A stretch of DNA of 64,000 bases from Olsenella sp. An270. GTDB lineage: Bacteria > Actinomycetota > Coriobacteriia > Coriobacteriales > Atopobiaceae. The stretch covers positions 186,001 to 250,000 of the forward strand of contig NZ_NFJF01000003.1 in the NCBI RefSeq assembly GCF_002159735.1. Reading direction: 5' to 3'. The position numbers were made by a program, and so were the translations under genes. Shown piece by piece: positions 5,218 through 61,539 of the stretch (position 1 is the stretch's first letter; the number at the start of each line of letters is the position of its first letter). A model generated the notes under the pieces. That model ran no database searches, had not been told where the DNA came from, and was given only the letters and a program-made list of their open reading frames with translations.

Positions 5218-5251
5218 AAATAACGCACAAAATCGTACATGTGCGTTATTT
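5218..5251 (+). terminator. AT-rich dyad after the hydrogenase gene (terminator or operator)
   Basis: Perfect 11-bp arms AAATAACGCAC (5218-5228) and GTGCGTTATTT (5241-5251) flank a 12-nt loop, followed by TTTG. It is unusually AT-rich for this genome. Its place 24 nt after the stop fits a terminator; an operator for the downstream gene is the alternative. Confidence 0.5.
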
Positions 5252-30268: not shown

Positions 30269-31108
30269 CTACCTGCCGCGCTCGGCGCGCCGCTGGGCAC
30301 GGGCGGCGAGCGCCATGCCACGCAGCTCCTTGGCGCGTGCGGCGTTCATGGCCTTCACGCCCTTGAGCGGGTAGTCGATCCCGAGCTTGTCGTACTTGGT
30401 CTTCCCAAGGGTGTGGTAGGGGAGGAAGTCGAGGCCCACGACGTTGTCCCAGTCCCCGATGATGCGCCCGACGGCCGCGCACTCCTCCTCGGAGTCGGTG
30501 AGCCCGGGCACCACCACGTGACGCACGAGCGTGGGGATGCGCCGCCGCGCGAGCTCCTCGCCAAGCTCGAGCGCATGTGAGGCGGGCAGCCCACAGAGCG
30601 CCTCGTGCAGCGTGGGGTCCGATGTCTTGATGTCGAGAAGCACCATGTCGGTGGCGTCGAGCAGCTCAGAGAAGCGGTCCGCGCGCGCCGCCGAGAAGGT
30701 GGCTGCCGAGGTGTCGAGGCAGGTGTGGATGCGGCCTGCTGGCGCGGCGTGGGCGCCGCGGAAGAGGGCCGCCACGAAGTCGGGCTGCGCCATGGGTTCT
30801 CCGCCGGTGACGGTGATGCCGCCGGTGCGGTAGAAGGGACGGTTGCGCTCGTAGCGCTCGAGCAGTTCGCCGACAGTCATGCTGGTCCCGGGACCGGTGC
30901 CGTCCGCACGGGCGAACTCCCAGGTGTCGGGGTTGTGGCAGTACTGGCAGCGCATGGGGCAGCCCTGGCAGAACACGACGAATCGCGTGCCGGGGCCGTC
31001 AACCGTCCCAAAGCTCTCGGTGGAGTGCACCCGACCGATCACGTCAAGATCACGAGCGCGTCCCTCGGTATCCACAGTCACATCCGCACCTTCCACCCAG
31101 ACCTGCAT
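30269..31108 (-). CDS. pflA: Pyruvate formate-lyase activating enzyme
   Basis: The 279-residue radical-SAM protein has the cluster motif C50xxxC54xxC57 (GCPMRCQYC) preceded by TVDGPGTRFVVFCQ, followed by GGITVTGGEP and DIKTSD near 170. It generates the glycyl radical on the PFL system encoded immediately upstream on the same strand. A roughly 20-residue N-terminal extension precedes the usual family start. ATG 31108 has only a weak ribosome site. A strong nested hairpin at 31130-31203 separates it from the glycyl-radical subunit gene and may lower its expression. Confidence 0.92.
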   Translation of the reverse strand: MQVWVEGADVTVDTEGRARDLDVIGRVHSTESFGTVDGPGTRFVVFCQGCPMRCQYCHNPDTWEFARADGTGPGTSMTVGELLERYERNRPFYRTGGITVTGGEPMAQPDFVAALFRGAHAAPAGRIHTCLDTSAATFSAARADRFSELLDATDMVLLDIKTSDPTLHEALCGLPASHALELGEELARRRIPTLVRHVVVPGLTDSEEECAAVGRIIGDWDNVVGLDFLPYHTLGKTKYDKLGIDYPLKGVKAMNAARAKELRGMALAARAQRRAERGR

Positions 31109-31129
31109 GCAACCATGATAGACAGAAGC

Positions 31130-31203
31130 GGGCGGGGAGGTTGCGGAGCAAAGTTCCTGAGCGCCAAAGGCGCGAAGCACTTTGCGAAGCAACCTCCCCG
31201 CCC
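31130..31203. terminator. Triple nested hairpin between glycyl-radical subunit gene and pflA
   Basis: An outer perfect 15-bp stem (31130-31144/31189-31203) encloses GCAAAGT/ACTTTGC (31148-31154/31179-31185) and GCGCC/GGCGC (31161-31165/31169-31173). It begins 25 nt after the small gene's stop. Partial termination or mRNA stabilisation is expected. Confidence 0.65.
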
Positions 31204-31228
31204 GCCCTACGGACAGGTCAGGCTGACC

Positions 31229-31477
31229 TTACATCGCCTCGTGGAAGGTACGGGAGATGACGTCGTCCTGCTGCTTCTTGGTGAGGGAGTTGAACTTCAC
31301 CGCATAGCCGGAGACGCGGATGGTCAGCTGCGGGTACTTCTCGGGGTGGGCCTGGGCGTCAAGCAGGGTCTCCTTGGTGAAGACGTTGACGTTGAGGTGG
31401 TGGCCACCCTCCTCGACATAGCCGTCGATCATGCTGACGAGGTTGTCGACCTGCTCGGGAGCAACGGTAGCGCTCAT
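31229..31477 (-). CDS. Free-standing glycyl-radical domain of pyruvate formate-lyase (GrcA/YfiD-like)
   Basis: The 82-residue protein consists of the C-terminal domain normally fused to Pfl[37 protein letters not shown] and the end [10 protein letters not shown]. The radical-bearing residue is Gly57 in RVSGYAV. The neighbouring PflB lacks precisely this segment, so the protein is probably an obligatory subunit rather than a rescue factor as in E. coli. ATG 31477 follows AAGGGA on the minus strand. Two strong hairpins lie between it and pflB. Confidence 0.9.
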
Positions 31478-31496
31478 GTGAGTTCCCTTCTCGTGT

Positions 31497-31519
31497 GGGT
31501 CGCCCCGTCGGGGCGACCC
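31497..31519. promoter_or_regulatory. 10-bp hairpin just upstream of the glycyl-radical subunit gene
   Basis: GGGTCGCCCC (31497-31506) and GGGGCGACCC (31510-31519) form a perfect stem with a 3-nt loop, 19 nt upstream of the small gene's start codon and next to its ribosome site. A 5'-stabilising or attenuating role is inferred. Confidence 0.6.
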
Positions 31520-31541
31520 GTTCTGTCTCTCACAGTGTACC

Positions 31542-31574
31542 CGACAAATGACACTAGACAACTGTCATTTGTCG
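31542..31574. terminator. 12-bp inverted repeat after pflB
   Basis: CGACAAATGACA (31542-31553) and TGTCATTTGTCG (31563-31574) form a perfect stem with a 9-nt loop, 15 nt after the pflB stop. It could be a terminator with read-through or an operator for a separate promoter of the small gene. Confidence 0.55.
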
Positions 31575-31589
31575 AATCCTCCGAACGGC

Positions 31590-33680
31590 CTAGCAGCAGC
31601 CGCAGTCGGGGGCGGGGTTCTCGATCTGGATGTCCACGCCGAGGGCGTCGAGGTCGAGCTCGTCGAACATGACGGCGCCGTCCTTGCCGAGGGCGTTGGG
31701 CACGATGGAGAACGTGTTGGAGATGCCGTCCTGGGCGTCCTTGAACGGGAGCTTGGCGACGGAGGCCAGCGACGCGACGGCGCCGTGGGTGTCACGACGG
31801 TGCATCGGGTTGGCACCCGGGGCGAAGGGCTCGCCGGCGCGACGGCCGTCGGGCGTGTTGCCGGTGGCGTTGCCGTAGACGACGTTCGAGGTGATCGTGA
31901 GGATCGAGGTCGTCGGGACGGAGTTGCGGTAGGTGTCCGTCTCGCGGACGTACTTCATGAAGACCTCGACCACGTCGTGGGCGATCTGGTCCACGCGGTC
32001 GTCGTCGTTGCCGTACTTGGGGAAGTCGCCCTCGACCTCGTAGTCGGTGACCAGGCCGGTCTCGTCGCGGATGACCTTGACCTTGGCGTACTTGATCGCG
32101 GAGAGGGAGTCGGCCACGACGGAGAGGCCGGCGATGCCCGTGGCGAACCAGCGGTGCACGTGCTCGTCGTGCAGGGCCATCTGCAGGCGCTCGTAGCAGT
32201 ACTTGTCGTGCATGTAGTGGATGATGTTCAGCGAGTTGACGTAGACCTCGGCGAGCCACTGCATCATGTCGCGGTACTTGGACACGACGTCGTCGTAGTC
32301 GAGGTAGTCACCCTCGACCGGACGGAACTTCGGGCCGACCTGCTCGCCGGTCTTCTCGTCGCGGCCGCCGTTGATGGCGTAGAGGAGGCACTTGGCGAGG
32401 TTGGCGCGGGCGCCGAAGAACTGCATCTCCTTGCCGATGCGCATCGAGGACACGCAGCAGGCGATCGCGTAGTCGTCGCCGTGGTAGACGCGCATGAGGT
32501 CGTCGTTCTCGTACTGGATGGAGCTGGTGGTGATGGAGATCTTGGCGCAGTAGCGCTTGAAGGCCTCGGGCAGGCGCGTGGACCAGAGCACCGTGAGGTT
32601 GGGCTCGGGGCTGGTGCCCATGTTCTCGAGGGTGTGGAGGTAGCGGAAGGCGGTCTTGGTGACCATGGAGCGGCCGTCGACGCCCATGCCGCCGAGGGAC
32701 TCGGTGACCCACTGCGGGTCGCCGGAGAACAGCTCGTTGTACTCGGGGGTGCGGGCAAACTTGACCATGCGGAGCTTCATGACGAGGTGGTCGATGATCT
32801 CCTGCGCCTCGGCCTCGGTGATGACGCCGTTCTTGAGGTCGCGCTCGGCGTAGATGTCCAGGAACGTGGAGTTGCGGCCGATGGACATGGCGGCGCCGTT
32901 CTGCTCCTTGACCGCGGCGAGGTAGCCGAAGTACAGCCACTGCACGGCCTCCTGGAAGTTCTTGGCGGGCTTGGAGATGTCGAAGCCGTAGATCTTGCCG
33001 AGCTGCCCCAGCTCCTGGAGGGCGCGGATCTGCTCCGCGAGCTCCTCGCGGTGACGGATGACCTCCTCGCGCATGTGCTTCTGGGTGCCCGCGTGCTCGG
33101 CGCGCTTCTCCTCGATGAGGCGGTCGACGCCGTAGAGCGCCACGCGGCGGTAGTCGCCGATGATGCGGCCGCGGCCGTAGGCGTCGGGCAGGCCGGTGAT
33201 GATGTGGCTGTGGCGGCAGGCGCGCATCTCGGGGGTGTAGACGTCAAAGACGCCGGCGTTGTGCGTCTTGCGGTAGTTGGTGTAGATGTTCACGACCTCG
33301 GGGTCGACCTCGTAGCCGTTCTGCTTGCAGGCGGCCACGGCCATGCGGATGCCGCCGTTGACCATGAGGGCGCGCTTGAGGGGCTTCTCGGTCTGCAGGC
33401 CCACGATCTTCTCGAGCGGCTCGTCGATGTAGCCGGCCTCGTGCGAGGTGATGGTCGAGACGACCTTGGTGTCCATGTCGAGGACGCCGCCGGCCTCGCG
33501 CTCCTTCTGGAAGAGGTCCATGACCTCGCCCCAGAGCTTGGTCGTGGCCTCCGTGGGACCGGCGAGGAAGGACTCGTCGCCGTCGTAGGGGGTGTAGTTG
33601 CGCTGGATGAAGTCACGGACGTCGATCTCGTGCTCCCAGTTGCCGCCGACAAAGCCGGCCCAGGCCTCCTGCTGACTCAC
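31590..33680 (-). CDS. pflB: Pyruvate formate-lyase catalytic subunit lacking its glycyl-radical domain
   Basis: The 696-residue protein converts pyruvate and CoA to formate and acetyl-CoA in anaerobic fermentation. It has the catalytic pair C408-C409 in [20 protein letters not shown] and the C-terminal [10 protein letters not shown]. Standard PFL (about 760 residues) continues into the RVSGYAVRF domain; here the chain ends instead in a short acidic stretch and a Cys-rich tail, DCGCC. The missing domain is the separate gene downstream. ATG 33680 follows GGAGCG on the minus strand. Upstream dyads with CACAAC/GTTGTG suggest redox or metabolite control. Confidence 0.93.
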
Positions 33681-33708
33681 TGCTCACGCTCCTTTTTCGA
33701 GGATGGTC

Positions 33709-33818
33709 GTTGTGTTGCCGCGCGGGTAACGGCACAACAAAGCTACCAGAGTTGGGTCCCCGTGAGGCTGGGAAAGTTAGCATCAGCTAAAAACTTGGAA
33801 CAGGCACAACATGTTGTG
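33709..33818. promoter_or_regulatory. Operator-like dyads upstream of pflB
   Basis: A perfect 14-bp palindrome CACAACATGTTGTG (33805-33818) and a second, widely spaced pair GTTGTG (33709-33714)/CACAAC (33733-33738) share the same half-site. The region is AT-richer than average. Repeated half-sites in front of a fermentative gene suggest a dedicated regulator, identity unknown. The rest of the 33681-34080 gap holds the inverted repeats listed next. Confidence 0.5.
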
Positions 33819-33907
33819 TCCAGATTGACAAGCATCGCCAACCTGTGGGGGTCTCAAAGTATAGTACGAACGGACGAGAATGACATCGTGAACCTCGGGA
33901 GAAGGTC

Positions 33908-34062
33908 GCGCGCCGCGCACCGGACCGGCTGGCCCCGCACGCGGCGCGCCGAGTGTACGAGTTATCGCGTGATGACTCGGAGCGGATAGCCTACTACGCC
34001 ATGAACATAACGTAAGACAATATTCCTAGCGGTCATTGCGAGAGAAACTCGTACACTCGGCG
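33908..34062. repeat. Paired inverted repeats in the pflB-DUF1295 intergenic region
   Basis: GCGCGCCGCG (33908-33917)/CGCGGCGCGC (33940-33949) is followed by a 17-bp perfect repeat, 33947-33963 with 34046-34062 (arms around GAGTGTACGAGTT), spanning 116 bp with an AT-rich interior. It lies just past the DUF1295 gene stop (minus strand) and may be its terminator or a small palindromic element. Confidence 0.55.
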
Positions 34063-34080
34063 AGGGTGCGTGCCGTCGCG

Positions 34081-34845
34081 CTACCAGACGAACGGGATGA
34101 TGAGCTTGGTGCGGTCTGCGTAGGCGCGGTACTCCGGGTTCTCGCCGTAGCGGGCCTCGTGGCCCTTGGCCATGCGACGCGCGCCGTCGAGCATGATGAA
34201 GATGATGCAGACAAAGCCGACAAGCGCCATGGCCCACTGGCCCACGCCGGCGAGGCTCGTCGCGCCGGCGAGAAGGACGCCGGTCCAGAAGAGCATCTCG
34301 CCCAGGTAGTTGGGGCAGCGCACGACCGAGAAGAGCCCCTTGGTGGCGACCATGTCCGGACGCTCGGCCTTCTGGGCGCTCTTCTGCTGGTCGGCCACAG
34401 CCTCGACCACAGCGCCGGCCGCCATGACCACGACACCCACCCACAGCACGACGTCGTCGGGCGTGCCGTTGGCCAGGCGCAGGTGCAGCCCCGCCGTCTC
34501 GCAGACGTAGAGCGCGCCCATGAACAGCCACGCGAGCGCCTTCACAAAGACGGGCGGCTCCTCGCCCACCTTGGTGGCGAGCACCTTGCGATAGGCGGCG
34601 TTGCCCATCTCGCGACGGTAGAGGAACAGCCCCAGGCGCAGGCCGTACGCGAGGCAGACCACCAGGCCCGCGACGATGCCGGGGGTCAGCGCCCCCGCCC
34701 CGGCGCCCCAGACCACGCAGGCGACGGCGATGCCCGCCACGGCAAAGCCGTAGCCGATGGACATGAACCACACGAAGCGCCTGAAGCCCATGGAGCAGCA
34801 GGCGAGCGCCACCACGAAGAGGATGCCGATAAGTACCCAGTTCAC
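34081..34845 (-). CDS. DUF1295 family membrane reductase (steroid 5-alpha-reductase superfamily)
   Basis: The 254-residue membrane protein has six or seven helices and the C-terminal signature of the DUF1295/isoprenylcysteine methyltransferase-steroid reductase fold: CPNYLGEMLFWTG (about 177-189) and a terminal EYRAYADRTKLIIP segment. Members use NAD(P)H or SAM on lipid-like substrates; the substrate here is unknown. The gene is the last of a five-gene minus-strand operon (TetR, flavin reductase, membrane protein, SDR, this gene), starting 1 nt after the SDR stop. Confidence 0.8.
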   Translation of the reverse strand: MNWVLIGILFVVALACCSMGFRRFVWFMSIGYGFAVAGIAVACVVWGAGAGALTPGIVAGLVVCLAYGLRLGLFLYRREMGNAAYRKVLATKVGEEPPVFVKALAWLFMGALYVCETAGLHLRLANGTPDDVVLWVGVVVMAAGAVVEAVADQQKSAQKAERPDMVATKGLFSVVRCPNYLGEMLFWTGVLLAGATSLAGVGQWAMALVGFVCIIFIMLDGARRMAKGHEARYGENPEYRAYADRTKLIIPFVW

Positions 34846-61504: not shown

Positions 61505-61539
61505 GTGATTCAAAAGGGGACTGTCCCCTTTTGAATCAC
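61505..61539. repeat. REP-like palindrome overlapping the glgP stop codon
   Basis: Arms of 16 bp, GTGATTCAAAAGGGGA (61505-61520) and TCCCCTTTTGAATCAC (61524-61539), are perfectly complementary around CTG. The glgP stop codon TGA lies within the right arm. The core AAAAGGGGAC/GTCCCCTTTT is of the type repeated as REP sequences in several bacteria. It can also terminate glgP transcription. Confidence 0.75.

Follow-up and report, generated by a model that had tools for sequence, protein, structure and literature searches.

Why should a gap of 112 nt between the genes for a pyruvate formate-lyase body and a free-standing glycyl radical domain hold two perfect hairpins? The gap lies in a 64-kb window, the whole stretch of DNA analysed here, which is part of a 2.01-Mb genome; on the minus strand the order runs from the pflB stop (31590) through hairpin 1, hairpin 2 and the ribosome site to the small-gene start codon (31477). 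The two hairpins look like different things: one a protein-binding site beside a promoter, the other an RNA stem-loop ahead of the small gene.

A pyruvate formate-lyase in two parts

The genes and signals around the gap are as follows.

31590–33680, minus strand: pflB, encoding the 696-aa body of pyruvate formate-lyase, which lacks the radical glycine; C-terminus ...NPAPDCGCC
31478–31589, minus strand: 112-nt intergenic gap between pflB and the small gene, with both hairpins inside
31484–31492, minus strand: ribosome binding site GAGAAGGGA, read in the sequence; GAGAA.GGA is invariant in the alignment of module sequences described below
31229–31477, minus strand: small gene for an 82-aa glycyl radical domain protein (GrcA3) with the motif RVSGYAV
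31130–31203 (arms 31130–31144 and 31189–31203), minus strand: 15-bp inverted repeat 3' of the small gene, read directly in the sequence
30269–31192, minus strand: open reading frame holding pflA, the activating enzyme (TIGR02493, 250.4 bits against a cut-off of 231.75)

As the preliminary description had supposed, the enzyme is divided between two genes: PflB covers positions 1–670 of the 744 of TIGR01255 and the small protein positions 665–744, and the RVSGYAV motif is present in the small protein only. The PflB match to PF02901 reaches the end of the model, and that to PF01228 takes in just positions 1–55 of 106. Judged by these profile matches, PflB and the small GrcA3 protein are a split enzyme in which the radical glycine sits in a separate 82-aa protein. 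The small protein carries the radical motif RVSGYA in a chain of about 80 aa and, because its NF038360 (GrcA3) score of 165.6 bits passes the curated cut-off of 158, it already has a name in NCBIfam; its own genome holds a single match to it at E ≤ 0.001. A literature search that excluded supplements and preprints found no paper on a split or two-part pyruvate formate-lyase.

Several further features of the locus may be recorded here. The TIGR02493 match in the pflA reading frame begins at residue 54, and the true pflA start is probably 31108. The inverted repeat at 31130–31203, which overlaps the start region of the pflA reading frame, is a possible transcript end, and was not called by the terminator scan, which allowed loops of up to 8. 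The C-terminal cysteine cluster of PflB, DCGCC (31590–31607), is kept in 25 of 27 genus loci, the others having DCACC and DCGCR, and may have a metal-binding or redox role. Upstream of pflB, a palindrome-like sequence, GGCACAACATGTTGTGTCC (33803–33821), of which TGTTGTG is retained in some relatives, is a possible candidate operator of the main pfl promoter.

Two hairpins above chance expectation

Both hairpins occur where the preliminary description had placed them, a position confirmed by an inverted-repeat check and by the order of features on the minus strand. Hairpin 1, after pflB, is a perfect inverted repeat of 12 bp (31542–31553 and 31563–31574) with a 9-nt loop; hairpin 2, before the ribosome site, is a perfect 10-bp repeat (31497–31519) that folds with a loop of 3 nt. 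The window contains seven perfect stems of 10 bp or longer (loop 3–12), two of these within the 112-nt gap, compared with zero to five (mean 1.6) in eight first-order Markov copies of the window, and three stems of 12 bp or longer, compared with none in seven of the copies and one in the other. For a 126-nt stretch the folding energy is −53.7 kcal/mol (z = −4.40), a value equalled by 0 of 200 shuffles. Both hairpins are thus real and above chance. A known RNA family was rejected as their identity, no Rfam family reaching its gathering score in the window. One of the window's three 12-bp stems lies elsewhere, as a perfect hairpin at 5218–5251 (AAATAACGCACA...TGTGCGTTATTT).

Hairpin 1 lies at a fixed distance from a −10-like box

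Hairpin 1 is followed by a hexamer of promoter type, giving three features.

31542–31574, minus strand: hairpin 1, a palindrome read as a putative DNA operator, AYAAWTGNCA-N9-TGNCAWTTRT, with fixed spacing in 22 of 22 copies
31534–31539, minus strand: −10-like hexamer TACACT of a predicted internal promoter, at a fixed distance from the palindrome
31525–31529, minus strand: predicted transcription start of the small gene, at about 31527, placed from the position of the −10-like hexamer

The same arrangement, a palindrome CGATAAWTGTCAC-N7-GTGNCAWTTATCG with species variation and then directly GGNTACACTGTG, stands in the gaps of 21 genus genomes, and we refer to it as the module. Allowing up to three mismatches, it was found in 21 of 31 genus genomes, each site beside the small gene and one genome (G012) having two copies, and the reversed pattern gave 0 hits in the same 31 genomes. 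In the window a leave-one-out matrix scores the module at 61.1, its own complement at 13.8 and the next site at −28.1. The 22 aligned module sequences represent 21 genomes, two of them (L009 and L038) apparently both coming from G012.

Across these sequences, arms, centre and −10-like box run without a single insertion or deletion over the first 43 alignment columns (22/22), and the hexamer is TACACT in all except one, which has TAGACT; a TANNNT hexamer at a fixed place is what a −10 element for a housekeeping sigma factor would present. The columns 16–18 nt upstream of the −10 vary in the alignment, and because no −35 hexamer is conserved there we call the module promoter-like and do not file it as a housekeeping-sigma promoter; a generic promoter scan did not call the site. 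The palindrome has fixed half-site spacing and a fixed position relative to the promoter-like box, as a palindromic operator would.

Scored as RNA, hairpin 1 has 92.3% of its cells paired, and neither this value nor its covariation score was equalled in 500 shuffles (0/500 each); for pairs altered in both arms (287/500) and for further pair types (426/500), shuffles often matched it. Because a palindromic operator would also look paired, it is spacing, not pairing, that discriminates an operator from an RNA element. The distance from hairpin 1 to the −10-like box is constant, whereas that to the pflB stop, listed for 18 of 21 module gaps, ranges from 12 to 48 nt. This pattern of conservation makes a palindromic DNA operator the best reading of hairpin 1.

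Hairpin 2 lies at a near-constant distance from the small-gene start codon

31497–31519, minus strand: hairpin 2, GC-rich, 10 bp, read from an alignment of 22 sequences as a stem-loop of the 5' untranslated region

In that alignment the loop of hairpin 2 varies from 2 to 6 nt, and its end lies 19 nt from the ATG in 18 of 22 sequences and 20 nt in the other four. The distance to the pflB stop spans 68–105 nt in the 16 of 21 module gaps where the hairpin is listed, the figure being 16 because only the two best stems per gap entered that listing; the count of 22 comes from the alignment. Two of the ten pairs show compensatory changes (U-A to C-G in four rows, C-G to U-A in one), and 98.2% of cells are paired. 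Shuffles equalled hairpin 2 in 0 of 500 trials for cells paired and in 0 of 500 for covariation score, in 12 of 500 for pairs changed on both sides and in 468 of 500 for further pair types. The stem is thus anchored to the downstream start codon, as in a papBA-like 5' stabiliser, and not to the upstream stop codon, as a malEF-like 3' protector would be. In our reading, hairpin 2 forms a stem-loop in the RNA, at the 5' end of the small-gene mRNA.

Relatives with and without the module

The small protein was matched in 45 of the 60 genomes searched (its own included), among them all 31 of the genus, where the weaker matches are those of G010 (46% over residues 22–78), G020 (partial) and G004 (71% identical). 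The split form is widespread: a separate pflB lies just upstream in 79 of the best 80 loci, in Atopobiaceae and many Firmicutes. Gaps were read in these 79 (L034 had no pflB in reach) and in 29 distinct loci of a first set (L011 likewise had none).

Ten genus genomes have no module, and in the seven whose gaps were read (G004, G010 and G020 being left out) no TANNNT was found. A hairpin of unrelated sequence ends 16–25 nt before the ATG in 9 of 16 module-less loci (L012, L013, L014, L016, L030 and the Lancefieldella/Atopobium loci L043, L044, L046 and L048), that of L014 being weak, with 8 of 100 shuffles as good. L049 has a weak hairpin 29 nt before the ATG, the two best stems of L031 are 100 and 150 nt away, and L029 shows no hairpin in the scan for the two best stems and an imperfect one 21 nt away in another scan. 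The split enzyme does not require these features, because four loci (L010, L019, L050 and L094) whose enzyme is split in the same way have gaps of 25–34 nt, no hairpin in two scans and no module; the earlier proposal that a split enzyme needs such control does not hold for them.

A quick tree of the 3' part of pflB, from 34 loci of which 20 have the module (L009 contributing only 414 nt), is compatible, at modest support, with the module having been gained once and lost in L010 and L019. L031, from another family, has a site that the module matrix scores at 5.2 at the same place, the next site there scoring −36.6, and this appears to be a diverged copy of the module. Such a copy would not fit a single recent gain; because L031 scores at the same place, the module may instead be older, with more losses, or have arisen convergently.

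Some Firmicutes with a split enzyme have a third small open reading frame (65–97 aa) between pflB and grcA, found by motif scan in 16 of 61 loci (L051–L111), for example at L069:3703–3906, L063:3692–3898 and L104:3680–3898. Its N-terminal helix and GGGHMN stretch are those of GrcA3 in the one pair compared, and it has a C...AC..P motif in place of the radical loop; four such frames scanned gave nothing above Pfam or NCBIfam cut-offs, the best GrcA3 score being 23.1 against 158 bits. We speculate that its product occupies the radical-domain site in PflB.

An internal promoter or a processed transcript

We propose that the small radical subunit probably has its own regulated promoter within the gap, together with a 5' stem-loop. 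A dimeric regulator would bind the palindrome of hairpin 1, straddling the −35 region and reaching into the spacer before the −10-like TACACT at 31539–31534, and from that box transcription is predicted to start near 31527. The operator centre would then fall near −31, a position that, we infer, suits repression, or activation by promoter bending, better than activation from a classical upstream site. Because the start would lie near 31527, hairpin 2 would begin about 8 nt from the transcript's 5' end, where it could shield the mRNA and keep the ribosome site open. Any transcript reading through from pflB into grcA would also include hairpin 2, the genes being separated by no terminator-like site. 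The pflB promoter could thereby give a basal joint supply of both subunits, with extra small subunit made conditionally.

The most serious alternative makes both hairpins RNA elements of one pflB-grcA transcript cut between them by an endonuclease, hairpin 1 protecting the 3' end of pflB and hairpin 2 the 5' end of grcA, so that the two parts decay at different rates in malEF-like and papBA-like fashion. Both hairpins fold strongly and pair well across species; one paper (PMC5927463) describes both 3' protective hairpins and papBA-like 5' structures, precedents for the two halves of such a scheme; and a further hairpin lies 2–4 nt after the pflB stop in L020, L021, L022, L023, L025 and L027. 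An RNA protector, however, would need neither the invariant centre of hairpin 1 nor its exact spacing to the −10-like box, both kept in 22 of 22 sequences, and it is the distance to the pflB stop that varies, never that to the box. Fixed spacing thus disfavours the palindrome as an RNA protector, and we retain processing of this kind as an unlikely rival. The earlier suggestion that both hairpins act in the mRNA, protecting processed ends or attenuating transcription, is accordingly not supported: hairpin 2 does have the position expected of a 5' mRNA element, whereas hairpin 1 has the spacing of an operator.

Attenuation or termination within the gap, lowering grcA relative to pflB, could draw on the same stable hairpins, and we consider it very improbable: the coding strand has no T-run after either stem, a scan of 31100–34100 found 0 terminator-like sites of stem plus T-run (shuffles mean 1.1), and the radical subunit would drop, not rise. 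That both hairpins are neutral remnants of repeats placed in the gap by chance is suggested by repeat-like hairpins with a GGGGACAGTCCCC-type core in some relatives' gaps and in the window, yet there is hardly any likelihood of this for a module that stands at one place per genome (two copies in G012), beside the small gene, with fixed spacing in 21 genomes. The repeat-like hairpin of the window (61505–61539) is REP-like, with a GGGGAC-GTCCCC core and a perfect 16-bp stem, and hairpins with this core occur in the gaps of L020–L023 and L025–L027, shortly after the pflB stop.

With the internal promoter as the preferred reading, the earlier idea that the small subunit is made in excess stays plausible, given a promoter-like module in the gap itself; any surplus would plausibly come from this separate module and not from two mRNA hairpins.

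Related sites before feoB and candidate regulators

In 19 genus genomes, searches with a loosened palindrome, counted on one strand, gave 37 sites against 5 for the reversed pattern, and across 11 genomes from other families the figures were 17 and 13; in the genome of the window itself, matches numbered 3 against 0 for the stricter pattern and 23 against 9 for the loosest. Seven palindrome loci that were read sit just before a gene that we take to be feoB, and the copy in this genome is FeoB by Pfam. A feoB-type pattern, whose half-sites and spacing are those of the palindrome, finds sites in 27 of 31 genus genomes (control 0), and by a strict motif the start of FeoB follows the site in 24 of the 27 loci. 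In Atopobium minutum (L046) a similar site, scoring 6.7, precedes pflB.

The half-sites AAWTGNYAC and the 7-nt centre are common to the feoB and grcA sites. Because the feoB flanks differ and no equivalent −10 layout follows there, a regulator shared by the two is put forward as a hypothesis, which the missing layout and the loose matches in this genome (23 against 9) leave only suggestive. On this footing we tentatively raise the possibility that a metal- or oxygen-responsive regulator shared with feoB controls the internal promoter, which overproduces only a disposable radical subunit, so that oxygen-cleaved domains are swapped and the body is kept. Because in the genus the radical part has its own putative control region, the idea of a disposable radical part becomes testable, and it raises the question of whether supply of the damaged part alone shifts with oxygen or iron. 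An operator that stands at one place per genome also offers bait for the regulator.

DtxR-type matches in the genome comprise two over the cut-off, one nearly full-length, and one below it, and nothing links the two over the cut-off to the site. FNR was set aside, the site being unlike the FNR box and the 11 Crp/FNR-type matches in the genome marginal, with two at the cut-off, one of which is a DtxR-type protein. A literature search on the regulator side found nothing to the point. Near-matches elsewhere in the genome were likewise rejected as regulon members: C8:129946 lies beside a secreted-protein-like reading frame in a different layout, and C7:148220, C1:152346 and C12:26118 fall within a dispersed repeat family.

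Members of this repeat family form a set of their own.

G000:C1:152318, C7:80207, C7:148151, C8:66453, C10:47439, C11:93221 and C12:26090 (L143, L144, L145): seven dispersed elements of 122–124 bp with identical inverted ends TTGTCTGGGTACTTTT

The ends match at 17 places in this genome (control 0), which beyond the seven elements include one end pair on C10 in opposite order and one single end. Two of the elements lie just upstream of a Zip transporter gene and a QueH gene, and the inner palindrome of the elements resembles the operator half-sites. A feoB leader, L113:1487–1545, has the shared palindrome together with GTTA...CTAAC-type repeats of a kind also found near feoA. A CTAACTT block lies close to pflB, and these may be a second motif, possibly linked to iron.

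Comparison with known systems

GrcA (YfiD) of Escherichia coli is likewise a small, free-standing glycyl radical domain that completes pyruvate formate-lyase. In that species PflB is complete and YfiD serves for repair, whereas the PflB described here has no radical glycine and the small protein has a single match in its genome at E ≤ 0.001. The NCBIfam entry GrcA3 (NF038360) is a protein model and covers neither the promoter-like module of the gap nor the stem-loop.

Enterobacterial grcA and feo promoters are under FNR control, the FNR box being TTGAT-N4-ATCAA. As among those promoters, a small radical gene and a ferrous iron uptake gene carry related sites here; unlike at FNR-controlled promoters, the palindrome does not resemble that box.

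An artificial E. coli tPFL (residues 1–695) with YfiD is described as catalytically functional, with weaker binding of YfiD (PMC8683613), and the natural division between PflB and GrcA3 falls near that artificial cut point. Stem-loops of the kind found here have been linked to stoichiometry in E. coli (PMC10667835). In papBA a stem-loop separates two cistrons and precedes the one that is favoured (PMC5927463). As in papBA, the present stem-loop lies between cistrons; unlike in papBA, no endonuclease cut would be needed, because the stem-loop follows a promoter-like module.
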